A DNA stretch of 52,994 bases from a virus: IMG/VR virus record IMGVR_UViG_3300028831_000554, positions 1-52,994 of that record. The stretch is one strand, 5' to 3'. Position 1 is the stretch's first letter; the number at the start of each line of letters is the position of its first letter. Of this stretch, positions 2,880 through 52,130 are shown piece after piece. The position numbers and the translations under genes are program-made. A model generated the notes under the pieces. It was not told the DNA's origin, did not search any database, and saw only the letters and a list, made by a program, of their open reading frames with translations.

Positions 2880-3215
2880 AGCTCATTAAGGGCGATTTTC
2901 GGGTGACTTTTCAGGAACGAAGTTGAACGAATCCCATTTTCCAAAAACGAAATCCAAATTGTCCAATTCGATACTTCGTTTTCAGAATTTACATTGTCAC
3001 AATCCCTACTAAGGAGCCCGCCCGCCCCCCAAAAGCCGCAAAAGCCGCAATCCGGGCAAGCCACCCGAAGTGGACATACCGGCACGTACGGTGTGGGAGA
3101 TGACGACCCGCTCGAGCGGGCCCGAAACGGACACCGGCCCGTCCCCGCCTCCGGCGGATCCGACCGATGAGCTTTGCGGGAGGTGGACGAGCCGTAGCGT
3201 CGAATCTCCGGACCC
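2880..3215. other. AT-rich patch with AACGAA repeats, possible origin or control region
   Basis: No gene is seen. From 2880 to about 3005 the base composition drops sharply to AT-rich. AACGAA occurs three times directly (two copies near 2920-2936, one near 2945) and once inverted as TTCGTT near 2977. From 3030 the sequence returns to high G+C with a direct repeat of AAAAGCCGC. An AT-rich segment beside short iterated sites is the usual picture of a replication origin or a repressor-controlled promoter; nothing here decides between them. Confidence 0.4.
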
Positions 3216-3731
3216 ATGGACGAAGAGGAGTACACGCCATCGGTCTGGTCTCTGCTCATGGCCGCCAGACGGGCCAGAGACGAGGTTTTGGACGCCATCC
3301 GCGATCATCCCGATCTTTGCGTCTACTGCGGGGACTACGCGACGTCGCGGGACCATCTCATTCCCCGCTACAGCTCCGGAGAGATCTGGCGGGGAGTGGT
3401 ACCTGTGGTCCCCTCCTGTGTGGCCTGCAATAGCTCGCTCTGCGACGCGCTGGTCATCCCAGTCCATGAACGGGCGTGGCACGTCGCACGCTCGCTCAGA
3501 GCCCGTCATGGACGGCTCCTGCGGCAACGCCCGTGGACGGACGATGAGCTAGCAGACCTGGGCCGCGGGCTCCGTAACAGTGTGCGAGCCCATGAGGCAC
3601 AGAGACGGCTCCTGATGGCCCGTCTGGCTGTCCTGGAATTGGGTGGGCTCACGTATGCCTCCGGAATGACGGGCGCGGTGGAACGGGCGCAGGGAAGCCT
3701 CTGGGGCCATGCTGAGCGAGTGGACCGATAG
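3216..3731 (+). CDS. HNH endonuclease, 171 aa
   Basis: The HNH nuclease core is visible: a zinc pair C35-x2-C38, the catalytic DH at 46-47 (SRDHLIPRY), and a second zinc pair C68-x2-C71 followed by N72 (CVACNSS). The C-terminal half is helical and Arg-rich, probably DNA-binding. HNH proteins of this kind are free-standing homing nucleases or packaging accessory nucleases; the location alone does not settle which. The gene ends just before a strong terminator. Confidence 0.8.
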   Translation: MDEEEYTPSVWSLLMAARRARDEVLDAIRDHPDLCVYCGDYATSRDHLIPRYSSGEIWRGVVPVVPSCVACNSSLCDALVIPVHERAWHVARSLRARHGRLLRQRPWTDDELADLGRGLRNSVRAHEAQRRLLMARLAVLELGGLTYASGMTGAVERAQGSLWGHAERVDR

Positions 3732-3744
3732 CCCGGGAAAACGG

Positions 3745-3775
3745 AAAGGACCCCGCCGTGTTGGCGGGGTCCTTT
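3745..3775. terminator. Bidirectional intrinsic terminator
   Basis: AAAGGACCCCGCC at 3745-3757 and GGCGGGGTCCTTT at 3763-3775 form a perfect 13-bp stem with a 5-base loop. The A- and T-tracts at the ends serve both directions. It sits between the convergent HNH gene (plus) and the minus operon ending at 3803. Confidence 0.85.
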
Positions 3776-3802
3776 GCGTCTGCCCAAGGGGACGCGGTGG
3801 GG

Positions 3803-4078
3803 TCAGTCGGGGGCTTCGGGCATGATCATGTCCAGATACCGGGCGTGCGCTTCGGCATCGGCCTGCGGCCAACGCGGCGCTTCCTCCGCGGCCAGACGCC
3901 GCGCAATCTCGTTCGTGAGACGGACGCGGGCCAGCGCCCGCAGAGTGTGCGGCCCGTAGCGCCGGTCAAGGGCCGAGAGGTGACGGATCTCGGCCCGTAT
4001 CTCGTCCACCGAGAACAGGTCAGGATCGGTCTGGGGGGTCGGCTCGCCGTGACGGGCGCGCCCGGGAACGTAGGTCAT
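3803..4078 (-). CDS. Hypothetical protein, 91 aa
   Basis: This is the last gene of the five-gene minus operon. Its ATG overlaps the stop of the HNH gene (ATGA at 4075-4078). The protein is Arg/Ala-rich and mostly helical (DEIRAEIRHLSALDRRY), without recognisable motifs. Translational coupling and position before a strong terminator support it as a real gene; its function is unknown. Confidence 0.65.
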   Translation of the reverse strand: MTYVPGRARHGEPTPQTDPDLFSVDEIRAEIRHLSALDRRYGPHTLRALARVRLTNEIARRLAAEEAPRWPQADAEAHARYLDMIMPEAPD

Positions 4079-4536
4079 CGTTGGTCCTTCCAGGTAACGC
4101 CGCGGATGGCGCGTCGGATGTTCGCCTCATGCACGCCGTATCGCTCGGCGAGTTCTCGGGTACCGATTCCCTGCCACCCTTTCGGTGGACGGCCGGTCTT
4201 TCCCCATGTGGGGAGCGACCTGATTTCGGCAACCTGCTCTGCTGTCAGTTTCGCTCTCGGGTTGTGCTCACCCTTGAGCGCTTTCCCTGCGTTGTTCTGT
4301 CGCCCCTTCGCGGCACAGTCCGCGGCGTTGTCCTTTGGTGTGCCGATGAATAGGTGATCGAGACGGTAGCAATCCCGTACGTCACAGGTATGGCAGACTT
4401 CCATACCCGGGGGGACAGCGCCGTTGTAGCGCTCCCAGACGTGAACGTGAACGCCTTTGCGAGCCCCTTCCCACCACGCGTACACGTAGCCCGAGTTATT
4501 GGGCCTGAGCCGAGTCTCGCGCCAGCAGGCACTCAT
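4075..4536 (-). CDS. HNH homing endonuclease with C-terminal HTH, 153 aa
   Basis: The start is the ATG at 4536, overlapping the previous stop (ATGA). The N-terminal half carries the HNH_3-type pattern: VHVHVWERYNGAVPPGMEV then CHTCDVRDCYRLDHLFIGTP and DNAADCAAKGRQ. The C-terminal part (about 100-150) has an HTH-like segment (GTRELAERYGVHEANIRRAI), typical of the DNA-recognition domain of this family. The coupling into an operon suggests an established insertion between two host genes. Base composition is slightly lower in G+C than its neighbours, as expected for a mobile gene. Confidence 0.85.
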   Translation of the reverse strand: MSACWRETRLRPNNSGYVYAWWEGARKGVHVHVWERYNGAVPPGMEVCHTCDVRDCYRLDHLFIGTPKDNAADCAAKGRQNNAGKALKGEHNPRAKLTAEQVAEIRSLPTWGKTGRPPKGWQGIGTRELAERYGVHEANIRRAIRGVTWKDQR

Positions 4537-5405
4537 GGCACGCGCACGAAACCGCTGGCAACAGCATCTGCCAGTTGCACGCTGATCGCCCCTGCGCCTT
4601 TGCGCGTGACGCGCTTGTAAGACAAGCCAACGATAGCGTCTGTCGGCTCTAGGAATCGGCAATCGCTACGGTCCCCATCGACGACCGGCCGACCCATGTA
4701 CGTTTCCGGCAACTGACCAACCCGGCAGGCAAAGACCACCACCGGTCGGCGCATGGTGGCAATGGCCCGATCGGGCGTGCGCTCATCGACCGAGAAGGAG
4801 AGGTCATACCCGAGTGACTCGCACAGGTCCAAGTCCCGATGACCGCGCCCTTTGGTGTAGTCGTAGACCCGTACCCCGCCGTCCGTCGCACGCTTGATGA
4901 GCCACGGCACGATCAACTCCCAACGGATGTCCGAGAACACGTTCAACCTGAGCGCGACGAGCCAGCCCTCAGGCCTCTTCCCGGCCGCCATGCGAACGAG
5001 CGCGTCGACCTCTGCCACCAGCAGACGGAAGAACACCAGCGGCTCTTCGGCCAGCAGCGCCGTTTTCCAACCCCGGGCGCGGTTGGGCATGTCGGAGAGC
5101 CCACCCTGCCCGGCCCCTTCCAGACAGGTCAGCGCACACTTACCCGACCAGCGGCAGGTGTTCCACTGCTCCGACAGGGTGTGGGGGAGGAGGGACAGGC
5201 CAACGGTGTAGACCTTGTCCCCGTTGGACAACTCCAGTTTGTGATTCCCGCCCAGCAGCGGACGCGCCTGCCGCTCGAACCCGTAGCGCACTCGGTAGTC
5301 GAGCCGGACGGTACGGGCGTGCTTGAGAGGGACGGCCATGACTGCTTCTTCGGTGATCCCCGCTCGCTCAAGGAGGCGGGAGAGGTCCTTCGCGGTTGCG
5401 CTCAT
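4533..5405 (-). CDS. Phage gp88-like protein, 290 aa
   Basis: The protein has a cysteine cluster (NTCRWSGKCALTCLEGAG, about residues 82-99) and a downstream LRLNVFSDIRWE segment, both in the order known from the gp88 family of actinobacteriophages, a family of unknown biochemical role. No transmembrane or signal sequence is seen. It is the third gene of the minus operon, overlapping both neighbours by four bases (ATGA). The HNH gene follows immediately, so the operon has probably been invaded there. The family assignment is from motif memory, not a search. Confidence 0.6.
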   Translation of the reverse strand: MSATAKDLSRLLERAGITEEAVMAVPLKHARTVRLDYRVRYGFERQARPLLGGNHKLELSNGDKVYTVGLSLLPHTLSEQWNTCRWSGKCALTCLEGAGQGGLSDMPNRARGWKTALLAEEPLVFFRLLVAEVDALVRMAAGKRPEGWLVALRLNVFSDIRWELIVPWLIKRATDGGVRVYDYTKGRGHRDLDLCESLGYDLSFSVDERTPDRAIATMRRPVVVFACRVGQLPETYMGRPVVDGDRSDCRFLEPTDAIVGLSYKRVTRKGAGAISVQLADAVASGFVRVP

Positions 5406-5617
5406 GACGCCACTTCCTGCACCGTTGCGAAGTACAACCCGGAAGCGAACCGATCAGCTTGGTACTGGGCCCGGTAGCGGTCATCCCCGTAGTCGATAGT
5501 GACGGACAGCCAACGGGAAGGGGCGGTTTCGATTTCGGCGAGGATCGTACCGATGCCGTACCAGTAGGCGTCGAAGGTGCGTCGATCAGGAACGGCGACA
5601 CTCAGTAGGTAGTGCAC
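5402..5617 (-). CDS. Hypothetical protein, 71 aa
   Basis: I chose GTG 5617, two bases after the upstream stop; the longer frame upstream is an Arg-rich shadow of the previous gene. The protein reads as a compact alpha/beta fold (VHYLLSVAVPDRRTFDAYWY...). Its length matches the neighbouring upstream gene (also 71 aa), and both begin with a beta-strand-like stretch, so the two could be distant relatives. Function unknown. Confidence 0.65.
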   Translation of the reverse strand: MHYLLSVAVPDRRTFDAYWYGIGTILAEIETAPSRWLSVTIDYGDDRYRAQYQADRFASGLYFATVQEVAS

Positions 5618-5619
5618 GG

Positions 5620-5835
5620 CTATGCCTCCTCGTCGTCGGAGGCGTCCTCGTCCCAGGAGTCGCGGGCCATTTCGATCTCTGCATCGGCGAACCATTCGGC
5701 CCCGTCCTCGACGCGGGTCACGCGGTACCCGGCAATGGTGGCATTGGCCAGCACCCATCCGACCATCTGGCGAAGAGCGTCGAGGTCGTGCTCAGCCGAG
5801 AAGCGCATAGAGAGGGTCACGTCGTAATCCATCAT
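5620..5835 (-). CDS. Hypothetical acidic protein, 71 aa
   Basis: First gene of the minus operon. ATG 5835 (or 5832) is preceded by AAAGG at a good distance; an ATG at 5868 is possible but lacks a site. The protein has a ferredoxin-like strand-helix-strand look (YDVTLSMRFSAEHDLDALRQ) and a very acidic C-terminus (WDEDASDDEEA). Function unknown. Confidence 0.65.
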   Translation of the reverse strand: MMDYDVTLSMRFSAEHDLDALRQMVGWVLANATIAGYRVTRVEDGAEWFADAEIEMARDSWDEDASDDEEA

Positions 5836-5874
5836 GGTCGGTTGCCTTTCGTGGTCACCAGTTGTCATGGTGCG

Positions 5875-5903
5875 ATCTTCCTCTACACCAACCCCCTTGT
5901 CAA
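5875..5903 (-). promoter_or_regulatory. Promoter of the minus operon 5835-3803
   Basis: On the minus strand TTGACA (5903-5898) is separated by exactly 17 bases from GAAGAT (5880-5875). The -35 box is perfect and the -10 box is weak but acceptable for a high-G+C host. It points at the first gene of the operon. Confidence 0.6.
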
Positions 5904-6135
5904 GCCCCCCATGTAGAAGATAGGCACCCTGTGCCCCGTTCTGTCAGCTGGAATCCCTTCTGTCCGTTTCCTCCGACCGGCGCGCGTGGGTTTCCCGACA
6001 CACGTCGGGGAGAGAGCGGGGCGGGGACGGGCGCAGAGACCCCTCATCCCAGACACCAAAATTCGGACCCTCGAACACACGTTCGAGGGCCCTCATCCCG
6101 GACACAAAAATTCAGACATCCGAACAGACGTTCGC
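5904..6135. promoter_or_regulatory. Intergenic control region with two LexA-like palindromes in a 49-bp direct repeat
   Basis: Two imperfect 49-bp direct repeats start at 6041 and 6090. Each contains CGAAC-N4-GTTCG: TCGAACACACGTTCGA at 6071-6086 (inside a 9-bp palindrome, 6068-6089) and CGAACAGACGTTCG at 6121-6134. The first matches exactly the mycobacterial SOS box TCGAAC-N4-GTTCGA. A third dyad with the same spacer, CCCGAC-ACAC-GTCGGG, lies at 5994-6009. Read from the minus strand the palindromes can also form hairpins followed by short T-runs, so terminators are the alternative. Confidence 0.6.
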
Positions 6136-6297
6136 CTACGTCACATCACCGTCGGAGTGTCGTCGCAGCCAACGCCACAAGCGACGGCTCGGCATGTTGT
6201 CAACGTGGTTCAGGTCAATGATGAGCGCCGGATCTGCGACCAGCGGAACCGGGGGCGGGTCTGCGACTGATTCGGCGGGGCGTACGGGTTCAGCCAC
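6136..6297 (-). CDS. Small hypothetical protein, 53 aa
   Basis: GTG 6297 is preceded by GGAGGG five bases upstream, a strong ribosome-binding site. The product is Pro-rich at the N-terminus (ADPPPVPLVADPALIIDL) and basic with Trp at the C-terminus (LWRWLRRHSDGDVT). It may bind nucleic acid or membranes, but no family is recognised. It ends one base before the second LexA-like palindrome. Confidence 0.55.
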   Translation of the reverse strand: MAEPVRPAESVADPPPVPLVADPALIIDLNHVDNMPSRRLWRWLRRHSDGDVT

Positions 6298-6342
6298 GGT
6301 CGCCCTCCGATATCGCGGCAGGGCCGTCGATTAATAGCGGGG

Positions 6343-6564
6343 TCAACGGTGTTCCACGGCGTTCCACATCAAGAGCCGGTCCTGCATCGGACGGGACAAC
6401 TCCTCCAGTCCAACCTCAACATCGTCAGCGACGTGAGCCATCAACCAGTCACGCACCTGCTCGGCCTTCTCCTTCTGCCGAAAGGGTCCGAAGGCTTCTG
6501 AGGCACCGGTCCCTACTACCATCACGATCCACTTGTAGCGTCCACCCTTGGGTCCGTTATCCAT
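6343..6564 (-). CDS. Small hypothetical protein, 73 aa
   Basis: The product has an N-terminal strand (YKWIVMVVGTGASEAFGPF) and a helix (KEKAEQVRDWLMAHVADDV), a strand-helix arrangement reminiscent of small SPOR-like or DUF folds of phages, but without a diagnostic motif. The ribosome-binding site is weak (GATGAG). It is read in the same direction as the long fibre operon upstream. Confidence 0.6.
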   Translation of the reverse strand: MDNGPKGGRYKWIVMVVGTGASEAFGPFRQKEKAEQVRDWLMAHVADDVEVGLEELSRPMQDRLLMWNAVEHR

Positions 6565-6639
6565 GGTCTGATCGTCTCATCGTCACCAAATTTGCCTGAC
6601 ACATGGACGCAGCAGTATCGGCGGAGTATTCGCTCCTGC

Positions 6640-7131
6640 TCATGGCTGGCAGGGGGTGGAGCGGGGGGCCTGCCAGGTGAAGCCGGTGGAGTCACGGCAG
6701 GTCCGCAGGAAGGAGGCCCGGTGGTCGATGGCCTGGGTGGCGCCGAAGAGCAGGCCGACGAGGATGATCATGCCCAGGGCCCAGGTGGCCAGGGCGACGG
6801 TGATGGCGGCGAGCCAGGAGGGGGTGCCACGGAGGAGGGTGATGAAGGCCTCGGGCTCGCTGAAGTACAGGGTGTTGATCTGGATGTTGTCGGGGGAGAA
6901 CCGCTGGCCGAGGATGCCCGGCTCGCCCCGGGGGCGCCAGCCGAGGTGCTGGTAGGTGAAGCGGTTGCGGTAGGGGGTGGAGGTCCAGGCCACGAGGAGG
7001 GAGTTGGGGGTGCGGCTCCGGTTCCAGGTCCCCATGACCGACCGGGCCAGGCGGTGGGCGCACAAGAGGGTCCAGGCGAGGATGAGGAGGAGGCCGACCA
7101 GGGCCACGGCGAGGTGGGCGGCGGTGCGCAT
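6640..7131 (-). CDS. Membrane protein with two TM segments, 163 aa
   Basis: The N-terminus has a hydrophobic helix (residues 5-25, AVALVGLLLILAWTLLCAHR) and a second one lies near 108-132 (WLAAITVALATWALGMIILV). About 80 residues between them would form one loop. The ATG overlaps the stop of the HTH gene by one base. It is the distal end of the fibre/glycosylation operon; holin, anchor or superinfection roles are possible but unsupported. Confidence 0.7.
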   Translation of the reverse strand: MRTAAHLAVALVGLLLILAWTLLCAHRLARSVMGTWNRSRTPNSLLVAWTSTPYRNRFTYQHLGWRPRGEPGILGQRFSPDNIQINTLYFSEPEAFITLLRGTPSWLAAITVALATWALGMIILVGLLFGATQAIDHRASFLRTCRDSTGFTWQAPRSTPCQP

Positions 7132-7388
7132 CAGTGCTGGCGGAGGATGTTGTTGACCGCCTGGCCGGAGATGCCCAGGAGGCGGCCGACATCGGCCTGG
7201 GACAGACCGGCGTCGAGGGCGACGCGGATGGCGTCGGCCCGCATCTCGGCCAGGTCCGAGAGCCGGTCCCGGGTCACGTCGATCTGCTCGGCCAGCTTCT
7301 TGGCCTGGTTGATGGCGGCCGCTGCCTTGGGGGTGACCGCCACGGTCTTGGCGGCGATGGTCTTGGCGGGGATGGTGATGTTGTCCAT
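7131..7388 (-). CDS. Small HTH DNA-binding protein, 85 aa
   Basis: I start at ATG 7388 (MDNITIPAKT). The long frame upstream is a shadow. Residues about 58-82 form a clear helix-turn-helix (LSQADVGRLLGISGQAVNNI), with a helical region before it. The fold resembles sigma-region-4-like or resolvase-type HTH domains. It lies inside the late minus operon, so it may regulate that operon or its neighbours. Confidence 0.75.
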   Translation of the reverse strand: MDNITIPAKTIAAKTVAVTPKAAAAINQAKKLAEQIDVTRDRLSDLAEMRADAIRVALDAGLSQADVGRLLGISGQAVNNILRQH

Positions 7389-7419
7389 GCCCGCAGGATG
7401 GACTCCCCGGACCGCTTTG

Positions 7420-8073
7420 TCAACCCCTCCCTTGGCGCCGGGTGGCCCGCTGGCGGGAGATCTGCGCCCTTTGCGCCGGGGTGAGCCAGGACCCGGCCCA
7501 CCAGTGCTGGCAGAAGGCCCAGGGCTGGCCCACCGGCCCGCCGTCACGCAGAAGGTGCTTCTCCCGGTAGTGGACGGGGTAGAGCGAGCCCGGCGGGAGG
7601 AGGAGCACGTCATCCCGGCCGGGTAGCACAGCCGTGGTCACCCCGGGCCCGGACTCCCAGGCCCCGCCTCCTCCCGCCACCACCCCCATGGCCCGGGAGA
7701 GGCACGACAGGATGGCCGGATGGCCCGCCTCGGCCCCCAGCACGGCGTCGGGGACCACCTTGGCGTCCTCCCAGGCGGCGAAGCAGCCCACTCCCCGGAG
7801 GGGCTCGAAGGACCGCAGGGGCTCCACGTCGGAGTCCACGTACACCCCGCCCCGCAGCGAGAGGTCCTCGAGGCGGATGAGCCCCGCCCGCTGGGCCCCC
7901 GAGGTGCAGTGGCCCCAGAGCCGGGCGGTGGCCGGGAACCACTCCTCGGGCACGGGGTCGCGCCAGGTGACGAACTCCCAGCCGGGGTGGAGTTCCTGGA
8001 ACCGGAACCAGAACTGCTCGGTCTCGGAGACCACCTCGGCCGGGACCGTCCGCACCAGGCGCCGGGGGATCAT
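7420..8073 (-). CDS. Glycosyltransferase, GT32/DXD type, 217 aa
   Basis: The N-terminus follows the pattern of sugar-binding DXD transferases (IPRRLVRT then PGWEFVTWRD), and GGVYVDSDVEPL around residues 74-85 carries the DXD that binds nucleotide sugar and metal. No signal or TM segment is seen, so it acts in the cytoplasm on a phage or host acceptor. The start overlaps the previous stop (ATGA). It belongs to a cassette with two more transferases and a methyltransferase; the likely targets are virion proteins encoded upstream, but the acceptor is inferred. Confidence 0.8.
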   Translation of the reverse strand: MIPRRLVRTVPAEVVSETEQFWFRFQELHPGWEFVTWRDPVPEEWFPATARLWGHCTSGAQRAGLIRLEDLSLRGGVYVDSDVEPLRSFEPLRGVGCFAAWEDAKVVPDAVLGAEAGHPAILSCLSRAMGVVAGGGGAWESGPGVTTAVLPGRDDVLLLPPGSLYPVHYREKHLLRDGGPVGQPWAFCQHWWAGSWLTPAQRAQISRQRATRRQGRG

Positions 8074-8420
8074 CGGGCGAACCCGTAATTGACGATGAAC
8101 ACCACCAGTGACAGGACGAGGGTGGCGGCGGCGATCATGTAGCCGAACGTGGCGGCGTTGCCCGCCGTCCGCCCGGCCAGCTTGTCCATGTAGGTGGTCA
8201 GGTTGTCGATCTTCTCGGCCACGGTGTCGAAGCGTTTCTCCTGGGCCAGCTCCGCTTTGATGACGGCCTCTTTGGCCGCCGCCATGGCCGCGGCGGTGGC
8301 GTGCTCGATGGCCACGAAGCGCTGCTGGATGGCCTCGAAGCGGTAGTCGGTCTCCCGTCGCAGGTTGTCCAGGCCCATGTCAGCGGCCCGGCGCCGTTCC
8401 CCGTTGTCCTCGGTATTCAT
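8070..8420 (-). CDS. Coiled-coil membrane protein, 116 aa
   Basis: Residues about 10-85 are heptad-like and charged (a coiled coil), and residues about 92-112 are a C-terminal transmembrane helix (FGYMIAAATLVLSLVVFIVN). The topology is that of small tail-anchored phage proteins, which can be holin-associated. Both ends are translationally coupled (ATGA). Confidence 0.7.
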   Translation of the reverse strand: MNTEDNGERRRAADMGLDNLRRETDYRFEAIQQRFVAIEHATAAAMAAAKEAVIKAELAQEKRFDTVAEKIDNLTTYMDKLAGRTAGNAATFGYMIAAATLVLSLVVFIVNYGFAR

Positions 8421-8614
8421 TCATCCGCCTCCTCGGCCCGGGCGGCGTTGTAGGCCGACAGGTGGCCCACGAAGTTGGCGTAGAGCGACATGGCCGCCAC
8501 CCACAGGATGGACTGCTTCCACCACAGCAGGGTGGGGGCCAACAGGGCGGCCCACACCCCGGCCAGGATGAGGTGGATACGGCACATGATCCTGGCCGAC
8601 ACCCGCTGGCTCAC
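8417..8614 (-). CDS. Small membrane protein with two TM helices, 65 aa
   Basis: The start is GTG 8614, overlapping the methyltransferase stop (GTGA); the longer frame on record is a shadow of the methyltransferase. Two hydrophobic segments (IHLILAGVWAALLAPTLLW and SILWVAAMSLYANFVGHLSA) make a hairpin in the membrane. The C-terminus is acidic. A holin-like role is possible; the context is fibre modification, so an anchoring role is equally plausible. Confidence 0.65.
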   Translation of the reverse strand: MSQRVSARIMCRIHLILAGVWAALLAPTLLWWKQSILWVAAMSLYANFVGHLSAYNAARAEEADE

Positions 8615-9201
8615 CGGACGAACTCCCCCACCCAGACCGACTCGGCCCAGATGGACGTGGCGGCGTAGCGGCGGTGCTCCAGCCGCCTCGTTTGGCGCCA
8701 GCCGGAACCGTCGCGCACGAACGTGGCCTGACGGGTCGGGGTGACCGGCAGGCGCCCGTCGAGCACGGCCGAGTCCCAGAACGGGTGCCAGCCCATGGGC
8801 GTGGTCACCAGCATGGCCCCGCCCGGGCGCACCAGTTCCCACAGGTGCCGGAGCGCATTGACGGGCCCGTCGGGATGGCGCCCCTGGTCGGGCTCGTCCC
8901 AGCGGACGTGCTCCAGGGTGGAGATCGACACCACCCAGTCGTGGTCCTGGTGGTAGTCGAAGAGGTCCATGGCCAGGTGCCGTCCCGGCTCGTAGCGGTC
9001 GATCACCGTCCAGGGGGCCCGCATGTAGTGGGAGAGCACGTTGCCGATCTCGAGCCCGCCCCCCGCCGACCCCCGCTGGCCGATGAACCACCGGGCGATG
9101 GGGATCTCCACCGCCCGCTCGTTCTCCCCGGAGTGGTTGTAGGCGTCGCGGCAGTACTCGAGTTCGACATCCCAGTAGTAGAACCGCTCAGGCGGCAACA
9201 T
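8611..9201 (-). CDS. SAM-dependent methyltransferase, class I, 196 aa
   Basis: Motif I is GLEIGNVLSHY (about 49-59), an acidic strand end appears as VIDRYEPG (motif II region), and STLEHVRWDEP plus RPGGAMLVTTP are the usual motif IV and post-motif segments. The fold is that of small-molecule or sugar methyltransferases. Being sandwiched between glycosyltransferases, it probably methylates a sugar that they transfer. It overlaps the upstream gene by 14 bases. Confidence 0.8.
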   Translation of the reverse strand: MLPPERFYYWDVELEYCRDAYNHSGENERAVEIPIARWFIGQRGSAGGGLEIGNVLSHYMRAPWTVIDRYEPGRHLAMDLFDYHQDHDWVVSISTLEHVRWDEPDQGRHPDGPVNALRHLWELVRPGGAMLVTTPMGWHPFWDSAVLDGRLPVTPTRQATFVRDGSGWRQTRRLEHRRYAATSIWAESVWVGEFVR

Positions 9202-18536: not shown

Positions 18537-20228
18537 TCATCCGTGGACGACGACCCGGTACGTCGTGGCGGGGATTGTCGTGGCTGACCGGATCGTGACG
18601 GTGTTGGTCGACGTGTGTTCGACAGAGAATTCCTCCTCAGCGAAGGTCCCGGCCGCGAGGTACACCGTAACCATCACATCACGAGTCCCGAGGTTGTGGG
18701 TGATGACTTCGGATGTGGCCCCGCCAGTGACGTTGGCGGCGTAGAGCATCGGGACGACGGTGTGGTTGACGGCCACGTCGTCGGCGTTGACGGTGATGCC
18801 GGTCCCGGCCCCGACCGCCAGGGCCGTGGTCGGGCCACCGCCGCTCAGGCCCGCGCCCGCCGCGCCGGTCGAGATGTGGACGATGTCCGACGTGATGGCG
18901 AGGTTGGTGGCGTCGACATTGACGGACAGGGCCGTGCCGCCACCACCCGCCAGCCCGTTACCGGCCACCGCCGTGGCGAGCTGGGTGGCGCCGACACCGC
19001 CGTTGGTGATGGAGAACTGGCCCCCAGAAAGCGTCAGGGTCGTGCCGTCGGCCGTGTAGACGTTGTTGTCGCCAGTGACCGTCCAGTTCTGGGCGGCGGC
19101 GGTCAGGTCGGCCAGGGTGTTCTGCTGGGTGTAGATCTTGCCCCGCAGCGACGAGTCGTTGGCCTCGACAAGGACCGTGGCGTTGGACAGCTCCGTGGCG
19201 CTGTTGGCGTCGGCAACGCGGGTCAGGACCCAGGGGGCGGCGCCAGACCCGACGGCGGTGACGGTGTAGATGCCGTTCTGGAAGGTGCTGGCCTGGTCCT
19301 TGACCAGCAGCCGCTCACCGGCCACGAGCGTGTGGCTCGCCTGGGCGGCCAGCGCGGCGTTGGTCGATGAGGTCAGCGTCCCGGCCCCGGCGTTGTACGT
19401 GGGGGTGTTGGGGAGGGCACCGGTCGTGGCCGTCGCCACCGGGTCCTTCCACTGGCGCCCCTCGATGGCGGCGTTCAGCTGGCCGAGGTTGACGGCATCG
19501 GTGGTGAGGGAACCGGCGGCGAGGCCGGTGATCTGCTGGCTGTTGAGGTCCAGCGCCGCCGTCCTCGGCCAGTCGGTCAGGTCGGCGGTGGCGAGCATCT
19601 CCTGGTGGAGCGCCGTCGTGTGGGCGGGCATGGCGTGCTTGTGGTCCCGCCTGGCGGCCACTGTCGCCACGCCGACCACGGCCGAGTCGTTGAAGGCCTG
19701 GGTGCTGGGGGAGGTGGCGTCGAAGGCAAGGATCGTGGCATCGGTACGGATCGCGGTGTTGGCCGAGCCAGCCGCCGCTGCCGTTCCCAGGGTGACGGAC
19801 GGAGCCGCGTACTGGACGGCGAAATTCATGCGGTTGTTGGCGTCGTCATAGGTCGCGGTGATGCCGACGTTGCCGGTGTCGGGCTCAAGGAAGGCCCCCA
19901 CCGCGTCCTGGAAGGTCTCGTCGTTGGTGACGGCGATGGAGAGGCTGTTCGACGCGTCGTTGTAGGTGACAGTGACCCCGGACTGGGTACCGTTGGTGAA
20001 CGCCGTGGCGATGGCGTCCTGGGCGTTCTCGTCCGTGTAGGCGCCAGCCGATGTGGCCAGGCTGACCGTCGCCCCGTTGGCCCGGACGCGAACCGCGTCG
20101 AGGACGGTGTCGTACCAGATCCGGCCGTCGCCGAGCAGGGACCCGGGGTCGGCCGACAGGTTCTCCAGGATCATCTGGATGGCCTGGTTACCGGCCAGGT
20201 CAATGCTGTCGTTGAACTTACGAGCCAC
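18537..20228 (-). CDS. Tail fibre protein, 563 aa
   Basis: It has the usual fibre plan. The N-terminus (MARKFNDSIDLAGNQAIQMI) is like other fibre attachment ends, LDLNSQQITGLAAGS and DAVNLGQLNAAIEGRQWKD (about 225-262) are classic tail-fibre segments, and the C-terminus has ITHNLGTRDVMVTVYLAAGT, a domain shared by many receptor-binding fibres. Coupling places it second to a collagen-like protein. Likely role: host binding. Confidence 0.85.
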   Translation of the reverse strand: MARKFNDSIDLAGNQAIQMILENLSADPGSLLGDGRIWYDTVLDAVRVRANGATVSLATSAGAYTDENAQDAIATAFTNGTQSGVTVTYNDASNSLSIAVTNDETFQDAVGAFLEPDTGNVGITATYDDANNRMNFAVQYAAPSVTLGTAAAAGSANTAIRTDATILAFDATSPSTQAFNDSAVVGVATVAARRDHKHAMPAHTTALHQEMLATADLTDWPRTAALDLNSQQITGLAAGSLTTDAVNLGQLNAAIEGRQWKDPVATATTGALPNTPTYNAGAGTLTSSTNAALAAQASHTLVAGERLLVKDQASTFQNGIYTVTAVGSGAAPWVLTRVADANSATELSNATVLVEANDSSLRGKIYTQQNTLADLTAAAQNWTVTGDNNVYTADGTTLTLSGGQFSITNGGVGATQLATAVAGNGLAGGGGTALSVNVDATNLAITSDIVHISTGAAGAGLSGGGPTTALAVGAGTGITVNADDVAVNHTVVPMLYAANVTGGATSEVITHNLGTRDVMVTVYLAAGTFAEEEFSVEHTSTNTVTIRSATTIPATTYRVVVHG

Positions 20229-45396: not shown

Positions 45397-45594
45397 TCAG
45401 CTCTTCTTCCTGGGTTGGAAGCGGTCGGCCTTGAGGTGCAGGGCGCCGTCTCCGATGGCGTTGATGTCGAGGTAGGAGGCGAACGCTTCACGGATCGCCT
45501 CGCTGATCGGAACCCTTGTGCGCCAGGCGAGTTCCCGAATCTGGTCGAGGACTTCCTGGTCGATGTCGGTGGTTGCGGTGATCCTGAATGCCAT
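45397..45594 (-). CDS. Ribbon-helix-helix regulator, 65 aa
   Basis: The RHH pattern is a strand (AFRITATTDIDQEVLDQI) followed by two helices (RTRVPISEAIREAFASYLDI). The tail is basic (FQPRKKS). Such proteins bind DNA as dimers of dimers at palindromes; the upstream palindromes with GTCAAGTG at their centre fit self-regulation. Confidence 0.85.
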   Translation of the reverse strand: MAFRITATTDIDQEVLDQIRELAWRTRVPISEAIREAFASYLDINAIGDGALHLKADRFQPRKKS

Positions 45595-45626
45595 GTGTCA
45601 AGTGTAACACATGAGTCAAGTGACTC
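45593..45626 (-). promoter_or_regulatory. Palindromic operator and leaderless start of the RHH gene
   Basis: ATGTGT-N8-ACACAT (45593-45612) and GAGTCAAGTGACTC (45613-45626) are adjacent palindromes with shared GTCAAGTG cores. The first contains the start codon of the RHH gene. On the minus strand TACACT ends seven bases before the ATG, which suggests leaderless transcription blocked by the bound regulator. Confidence 0.65.
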
Positions 45627-45656
45627 ACCCGTACTGATCGACGGTGAGATCGCGCC

Positions 45657-48280: not shown

Positions 48281-48432
48281 TCGACCACGTCGCTGCCGTC
48301 GCTTACCTCGAAGCCCTCGCCGTCGAATTCGAGGAGAGTGTTCTGGGTGGCGCCCACCCGGAGAAGATCGCTGCCCGCCTCCGAGAGATAGCCGAACTGA
48401 TCGACGGATTACCAATCGCTCCTACAGACTGA
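48277..48432 (+). CDS. Small helical protein, 51 aa
   Basis: ATG 48277 overlaps the previous stop. The product (MIDHVAAVAYLEALAVEFEE..., PEKIAARLREIAELIDGL) is an acidic helix-loop-helix. It ends converging with WhiB with an 11-base overlap. Confidence 0.55.
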   Translation: MIDHVAAVAYLEALAVEFEESVLGGAHPEKIAARLREIAELIDGLPIAPTD

Positions 48433-48883
48433 TCGCCGCCCGCTGGCGCGACCACCACTCCGCCTCCGCCTCGAGCACCTCGAGCGGGGGCGGTGTCGCG
48501 TTCCGCCGGGCCCGGTCGCGCTCGCGCTTGGCGGCCAGGTGGGTCGAGCGCAGGGCGTCACAGGCCCCGCAGCCCGTCGGGCGCCAGTTGCCCACCCGGC
48601 CCCACAGCTGGGCCGGGTCCTCGTTGCGGCGACAGCCCACGCACACCCCCCGGCGCAGCGACGAGCGCTGGCCGTCGGTCAGCCCAGCGTAGATGCCGTG
48701 GGGGACGCGGTCGGTGCCGTCGGTCCTCACCCCGTAGTCGAGGCACTCCCGGCGCACGGGGCAGGTGATGCAGATATCCCGCACCCGGCCCATCTCGAAT
48801 GGGTCGGGGTCGCGGTCCTCGGGGAACCACCAGTCAGCCGGATAATCGGCGCACGCCGCTCGGACCACCCAGGGTTCGCTCAC
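48422..48883 (-). CDS. WhiB-family regulator with extra CxxC pair, 153 aa
   Basis: The four iron-sulfur cysteines are C11, C38, C41 and C47 (CADYPADWWF, CITCPVRREC), and the turn HGIYAGLTDGQRSSLRR replaces the usual G(I/V)WGG. WhiB proteins of phages and actinobacteria bind sigma factors. A second set C81-x2-C84 and C105-x2-C108 (CVGCRRNEDP, CGACDALR) is a zinc-ribbon-like addition. The start is GTG 48883. Confidence 0.9.
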   Translation of the reverse strand: MSEPWVVRAACADYPADWWFPEDRDPDPFEMGRVRDICITCPVRRECLDYGVRTDGTDRVPHGIYAGLTDGQRSSLRRGVCVGCRRNEDPAQLWGRVGNWRPTGCGACDALRSTHLAAKRERDRARRNATPPPLEVLEAEAEWWSRQRAAISL

Positions 48884-52096: not shown

Positions 52097-52130
52097 GAAC
52101 GGCCGCCGGAGGCGATCCCGGCGGCCGTTC
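52097..52130. terminator. Perfect 13-bp hairpin
   Basis: GAACGGCCGCCGG at 52097-52109 pairs with CCGGCGGCCGTTC at 52118-52130, with an 8-base loop. It ends the transcript of the regulator operon coming from 52994 just before the AT-rich promoter. No T-run, but the stem is very stable. Confidence 0.75.

Follow-up and report, generated by a model that had tools for sequence, protein, structure and literature searches.

The IMG/VR virus record IMGVR_UViG_3300028831_000554 carries two palindromes (dyads) of the SOS-box type, at 6071-6086 and 6120-6135, that are probably binding sites for the LexA protein of an actinobacterial host and, judging from the sequence, would have a regulatory role. The whole record (52,994 bases, classed as linear and possibly a fragment) was analysed and is called the window here. 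It contains two sites with the LexA consensus, which are rare by chance and lie upstream of the promoter of an operon (5835-3803, minus strand), and the same architecture is present in many other viruses.

Two probable SOS boxes in a 49-bp tandem repeat

The elements of the box region are as follows.

6071-6086, no strand assigned: SOS box 1, TCGAACACACGTTCGA, a perfect actinobacterial LexA consensus (16/16) with spacer ACAC (A..C)
6120-6135, no strand assigned: SOS box 2, cCGAACAGACGTTCGc, whose core CGAACAGACGTTCG (6121-6134) is a perfect CGAAC-N4-GTTCG (14/14)
6036-6133, plus strand: tandem repeat of two 49-bp units (6036-6084 and 6085-6133), 82% identical, with one box per unit
5994-6009, no strand assigned: third dyad, CCCGACACACGTCGGG, not of LexA type and of chance-level frequency

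A preliminary description of this DNA had reported two SOS-box-like palindromes in a 49-bp tandem repeat, and its coordinates and letters for the dyads were all correct. The repeat has a period of 49. The box arms are intact in both copies, whereas the flanks and one spacer base differ. Box 1 agrees with TCGAAC-N4-GTTCGA without a mismatch, as the preliminary description had stated.

How unusual are these sites? CGAAC-N4-GTTCG occurs twice in the window as against 0.09 times per dinucleotide shuffle, and the full TCGAAC-N4-GTTCGA was seen in 3 of 300 shuffles. More direct evidence came from a LexA matrix made of 19 published boxes of Streptomyces venezuelae (PMC9380542) and Mycobacterium tuberculosis (PMC8607333), with two weak S. 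venezuelae boxes omitted. Box 1 scores 19.7 bits with this matrix and is the top site of the window, and box 2 scores 14.2 bits. The score of box 1 was reached in none of 200 shuffles, and two sites of at least 13.8 bits within 60 bp were likewise found in none of 200. The operators of M. tuberculosis and S. venezuelae resemble the window sites in their TCGAAC-N4-GTTCGA consensus and in spacer type (PMC9380542, PMC8607333). Box 1 shares 13 of 14 positions with TCGAACGTGTGTTT, the lexA-2 box of S. venezuelae, and the spacers of box 1 (ACAC) and box 2 (AGAC) fit the purine-first, pyrimidine-last form of LexA sites, CGAACRNNYGTTCG.

The third dyad exists as described, but it was rejected as a LexA site because it scores 1.7 bits and is one of 27 perfect dyads with 6-bp arms and a 4-nt spacer in the window, a chance-level frequency. 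Two other candidates for the box region were rejected. A known structured RNA is not indicated, as Rfam gave no match up to an E value of 5 over 5400-6700. The L5-type stoperator motif, which we take to be the asymmetric GGTGGMTGTCAAG in many dispersed copies, matched the window 5 times at 2 mismatches (2.7 expected), and none of the matches was at the dyads. Separately, AAATTTGGTGAC followed by GATGAG lies at 6582-6593 on the minus strand, upstream of gene 6564-6343. It resembles the AATTTTGGTGTC/AATTTTTGTGTC...GATGAG of the two repeat units, and it is possible that it is a third, divergent repeat copy without a box.

The virus and its likely host

The window encodes a terminase, a portal/MuF-type protein, a tape measure protein, an endolysin and a WhiB regulator. 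Its closest proteins in the phage collection come mostly from actinophages, at less than 60% identity, which makes an actinobacterium the most likely host. The WhiB-family regulator (48422-48883, minus strand) is a marker of an actinobacterial host, and this use of it is backed by the WhiB controls described below.

Searches for relatives of the virus gave little. The first 25 kb of the window had no near DNA match in the phage collection. Protein searches with GP88 (encoded in the operon), portal and terminase returned no close relatives, and the protein encoded at 18537-20228 returned distant ones only. GP88 relatives had no neighbouring genes in common with the window except for one weak HNH match. 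The window record, itself a possible fragment, showed no LexA DNA-binding domain and no tyrosine integrase.

Clusters of SOS-box-like sites in other viruses

Viral contigs were scanned for clusters, that is, two CGAAC-N4-GTTCG sites 10-40 nt apart, and such tandem clusters were present in at least 120 stretches. This count was not used alone as evidence because repeats by themselves yield tandem dyads; the tests used were spacer, position and host marker. Single CGAAC-N4-GTTCG sites were not enriched in 50 viral records unselected for the motif (5, against 4 for a reversed-pattern control), so that clusters alone are informative. Of 156 unique pairs among the clusters listed, 110 have unrelated flanks.

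The first test concerns the spacer. In non-duplicated pairs it starts with a purine and ends with a pyrimidine at 197 of 220 sites (90%), as compared to 14 of 36 (39%) among dyads of other sequence in this DNA. The second concerns position. With a codon-model gene caller, 41 pairs fell in divergent gaps, 35 in co-directional gaps and 4 in convergent gaps; a further 36 were inside called genes, of which some are doubtful, and contig edges accounted for 35. Some clusters contribute more than one pair to the placement and spacer counts. The mostly divergent or co-directional placement argues for promoter-side elements rather than terminators. The third test is the host marker. WhiB was found in 23 of 50 cluster records, as against 6 of 50 viruses in a comparison set that was unmatched for length or G+C content; among 14 control genomes it was found in one, an actinobacterium. 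By these three sequence tests, the clusters are real LexA-type sites.

For 48 clusters the distance to the nearest outward start codon has a median of 173 nt (quartiles 135-260); for the window pair it is 235 nt. Around the clusters there were 25 promoter candidates. For 22 of these the -35 element is on the gene side of the box, 49-267 nt from its edge, and the other 3 are on the far side; none of the 25 overlaps a box. The window pair fits this pattern. The 16-mer of box 1 also occurs in identical form in three of the contigs (L217, L228 and L290). An S24 repressor might be expected beside such clusters, but none was found in 50 cluster-bearing records, and a tyrosine integrase was found in 2 of the 50; many of these records are fragments, so such absences carry little weight.

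Several other elements were seen in the viral contigs. Clusters of up to 7 SOS-box-like sites are present among contigs L180-L299 (for example L290, L197, L180 and L289), and most of them lie upstream of promoters. The gene adjoining the cluster is, in five records, a member of a single recurring family of ~620 aa that, by eye, may be terminase-like. Two intergenic elements (2316-2345 and 4735-4775) of contig L093, which also bears GP88, each combine CGAAC-N4-GTTCG and CGCAC-N4-GTGCG; the arms are identical between the two, the 4-nt spacers differ, and T-rich stretches follow. Paired TAGGA-N4-TCCTA dyads 28 nt apart occur in unselected loci that carry distant relatives of the 18537-20228 protein (L011 5270-5311, L012 8714-8755, L014 8348-8389 and others), with 28 found against 0.7 expected. 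A palindrome-plus-flank pattern search of viral contigs returned four chance matches only, and a search with the conserved left half of the repeat returned no match.

Cultured Gordonia phages also carry perfect TCGAAC-N4-GTTCGA sites upstream of genes. Five Sukkupivirus Gordonia phages have three perfect 16-bp boxes that are invariant among them, in a ~650-bp region between divergent genes; some of the records annotate small hypothetical genes, in differing frames, across the box region. Gordonia phage BrutonGaster has the exact window 16-mer at position 90979 and another box 51 bp away, a spacing close to the 49 of the window. Unlike the window, Sukkupivirus phages have three boxes in a divergent gap, and the BrutonGaster boxes are in a terminal region without annotated genes. 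The Gordonia phage regions fetched held no annotation of such sites, only hypothetical proteins. Repeated GGTGGGTGTCAA motifs, near the L5-type stoperator motif, were seen beside the SOS-box region of BrutonGaster (L305, 1630-2100). The preliminary description's reading of the first two dyads as LexA sites thus gains support, at the level of sequence, from the published-site matrix, the Gordonia phage matches and a viral class with LexA-type spacers.

The neighbouring operon and a possible mechanism

Read along the minus strand, gene 6564-6343 comes first, followed by a doubtful open reading frame (ORF) at 6297-6136, then boxes 2 and 1, the third dyad and the promoter at 5903-5875, and finally the operon 5835-3803 with a terminator at 3741-3779.

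6343-6564, minus strand: next gene upstream, function not assigned
6136-6297, minus strand: doubtful 53-aa ORF with a negative codon-model score, its stop codon 1 nt from box 2
5875-5903, minus strand: predicted promoter TTGACA-17-GAAGAT of operon 5835-3803, by sequence match
5620-5835, minus strand: first operon gene, no Pfam match that counts
5402-5617, minus strand: second operon gene, function not assigned
4533-5405, minus strand: third operon gene, GP88-family protein (PF17338, phrog_1617)
4075-4662, minus strand: operon gene, HNH endonuclease with a C-terminal DNA-binding part
3803-4078, minus strand: final operon gene, function not assigned
3741-3779, no strand assigned: canonical bidirectional terminator that closes the operon and serves as reference terminator

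The pattern TTGACA-17-NANNNT has only two matches in the window, both ahead of minus-strand genes. Since the 53-aa ORF has a negative codon score and is perhaps no gene, the boxes may be part of a non-coding gap of 510 bp (5836-6345), the second largest in the gene map.

Repression of the operon 5835-3803 in particular is a possibility that can be advanced only tentatively from this arrangement. Host LexA would occupy the two boxes and would lower expression of the adjacent operon from upstream, via looping or by blocking read-through from upstream genes. DNA damage would then trigger RecA-driven cleavage of LexA, and repression would be released. Repression of the neighbouring operon is placed first because clusters favour promoter-bearing gaps, and LexA is proposed as the binder because one motif in unrelated viruses points to a shared host protein. 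The link between the dyads and this operon that the preliminary description had drawn is plausible insofar as the promoter lies between boxes and gene; simple steric repression is not indicated because the boxes do not overlap that promoter.

How does this arrangement compare with known LexA systems? Published upstream boxes of S. venezuelae are 14-199 nt from the start codon, with a median of 68 (PMC9380542), whereas the window boxes are 235-285 nt away with a promoter between. The boxes of S. venezuelae vnz_21525 and other phage-like genes are 123-182 nt upstream of the start codon, and LexA-controlled phage-like genes of this organism, one of them a phage tail fibre gene, are strongly induced by mitomycin C (PMC9380542). 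Those genes are chromosomal with single imperfect boxes, whereas the window has paired perfect boxes in a viral genome. Phage GIL01 of Bacillus thuringiensis is like the window in having SOS boxes for host LexA, and its sites are just downstream of the P1 start (PMC4551915). The window boxes are instead upstream of the promoter. A phage controlled by host LexA in the GIL01 manner would have no LexA/CI repressor of its own, SOS boxes at its lysogenic promoter and a gp7-like co-repressor. When GIL01-type traits were looked for in the window, a LexA DNA-binding domain and a tyrosine integrase were lacking from the possibly fragmentary record and the boxes were off the promoter.

Several points weigh against a regulatory LexA site. 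LexA is usually on the promoter (published S. venezuelae median of 68 nt from the start codon), and the window boxes have no promoter overlap, box 1 being 167 nt upstream (minus sense) of the -35 element. Such displacement argues against standard placement, not against LexA binding. Box 2 is a copy that arose by duplication and is not independent of box 1. The palindrome of box 1 reaches 9-bp arms, beyond what LexA requires. No close relative of the window was found by which conservation of its two boxes could be judged. Finally, the gene and promoter calls for the class rest on our own simple models.

Three other elements were noted in the window. A second canonical promoter, TTGACA-17-CATCCT (7395-7423, minus strand), is directly ahead of a small helix-turn-helix gene (7131-7388) and is similar to the promoter at 5903-5875. 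Direct repeats around CACTTGAC (45590-45640) lie upstream of a ribbon-helix-helix gene (45397-45594) and are likely its autoregulatory operator. A perfect 13-bp inverted repeat at 52097-52130, in the gap before the right-end genes, forms a strong hairpin without a T tract.

Alternative explanations

One alternative keeps LexA as the binder but changes the purpose of the boxes. Boxes on replicating phage genomes would act as a sponge that titrates host LexA, and host SOS genes from which the phage benefits would thereby be derepressed. Displacement of the boxes from promoters in both window and class (0 of 25 candidates overlapping a box) would suit a sponge, as would clusters of up to 7 boxes, and the scarcity of tyrosine integrase (2 of 50 cluster records) and S24 repressor (0 of 50) means that many of these viruses need not be temperate. 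A sponge has no need, however, for placement near divergent promoters, the window has two boxes only, and no paper on such a phage LexA sponge was found in the open-access literature. A sponge is an unlikely explanation.

A phage-encoded DNA-binding protein with LexA-like specificity, the dyads being its operators, is less likely again. The window does encode a helix-turn-helix protein (7131-7388) and a ribbon-helix-helix protein (45397-45594), but it encodes no LexA DNA-binding domain, and the 50 cluster records hold no S24 protein. Furthermore, one motif that includes R..Y spacers across unrelated viruses better fits a shared host protein. The preliminary description had left the choice between host LexA and a phage repressor mimicking it; these findings favour host LexA as the best reading over the mimic.

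The main alternative in that description was that the palindromes form hairpins on the minus strand. Hairpin 1 is indeed a real stem of 12 bp and -22.2 kcal/mol on the minus strand, where one pair is G-U; on the plus strand this pair is an A.C mismatch. Hairpin 2 has 5 bp only (-3.8 kcal/mol). These could be intrinsic terminators for minus-strand transcripts, ahead of the promoter at 5903. Hairpin 1 has a T4 run 3 nt downstream and is the sole minus-strand terminator-like match in 3000-9000, and the ORF 6136-6297 would stop 1 nt ahead of dyad 2. An intrinsic (rho-independent) terminator is a GC-rich stem directly before a U tract with a positive d score, here that of d'Aubenton Carafa. On the minus strand hairpin 1 scored -26.6 and hairpin 2 scored -78.5, compared to +19.1 and +24.0 on the two strands of the reference terminator 3741-3779 of the same phage, and the candidate was rejected. 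The ORF is low in coding potential, and dyads of the viral class are rare in convergent gaps (4) and frequent in divergent ones (41). Termination as the function of the dyads is therefore very unlikely. Least credible of all is that a palindrome arose by chance and was then copied in a neutral tandem duplication: one duplication would account for the second copy and relatives in which to assess conservation are lacking, but box 1 alone exceeds 200 shuffles, both copies retain the arms and the R..Y spacers, and the viral cluster class provides parallels.

Meaning for phage gene control

A few cases of phages using host LexA are known, and in these LexA is on or just beside the promoter. No paper on SOS boxes in actinobacteriophages was found in the open-access literature either, so that novelty is provisional. 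A broader proposal, which we consider doubtful, is that clusters of perfect host SOS boxes serve many viruses as an undescribed regulatory device; a large share of these viruses would be actinophages, and some are probably lytic. In this view the clusters lie 50-270 nt ahead of strong promoters, in many cases where two gene blocks diverge. The device would be either a LexA sponge that switches on host SOS or a LexA-dependent upstream switch for early/late genes, with the window pair as a two-box example. The pattern of sites suggests that phages may read or soak up the host damage alarm by an undescribed route. If true, promoter-displaced clusters that recur in viruses lacking both an S24 repressor and a tyrosine integrase would represent a new route from the host damage response to phage gene control.
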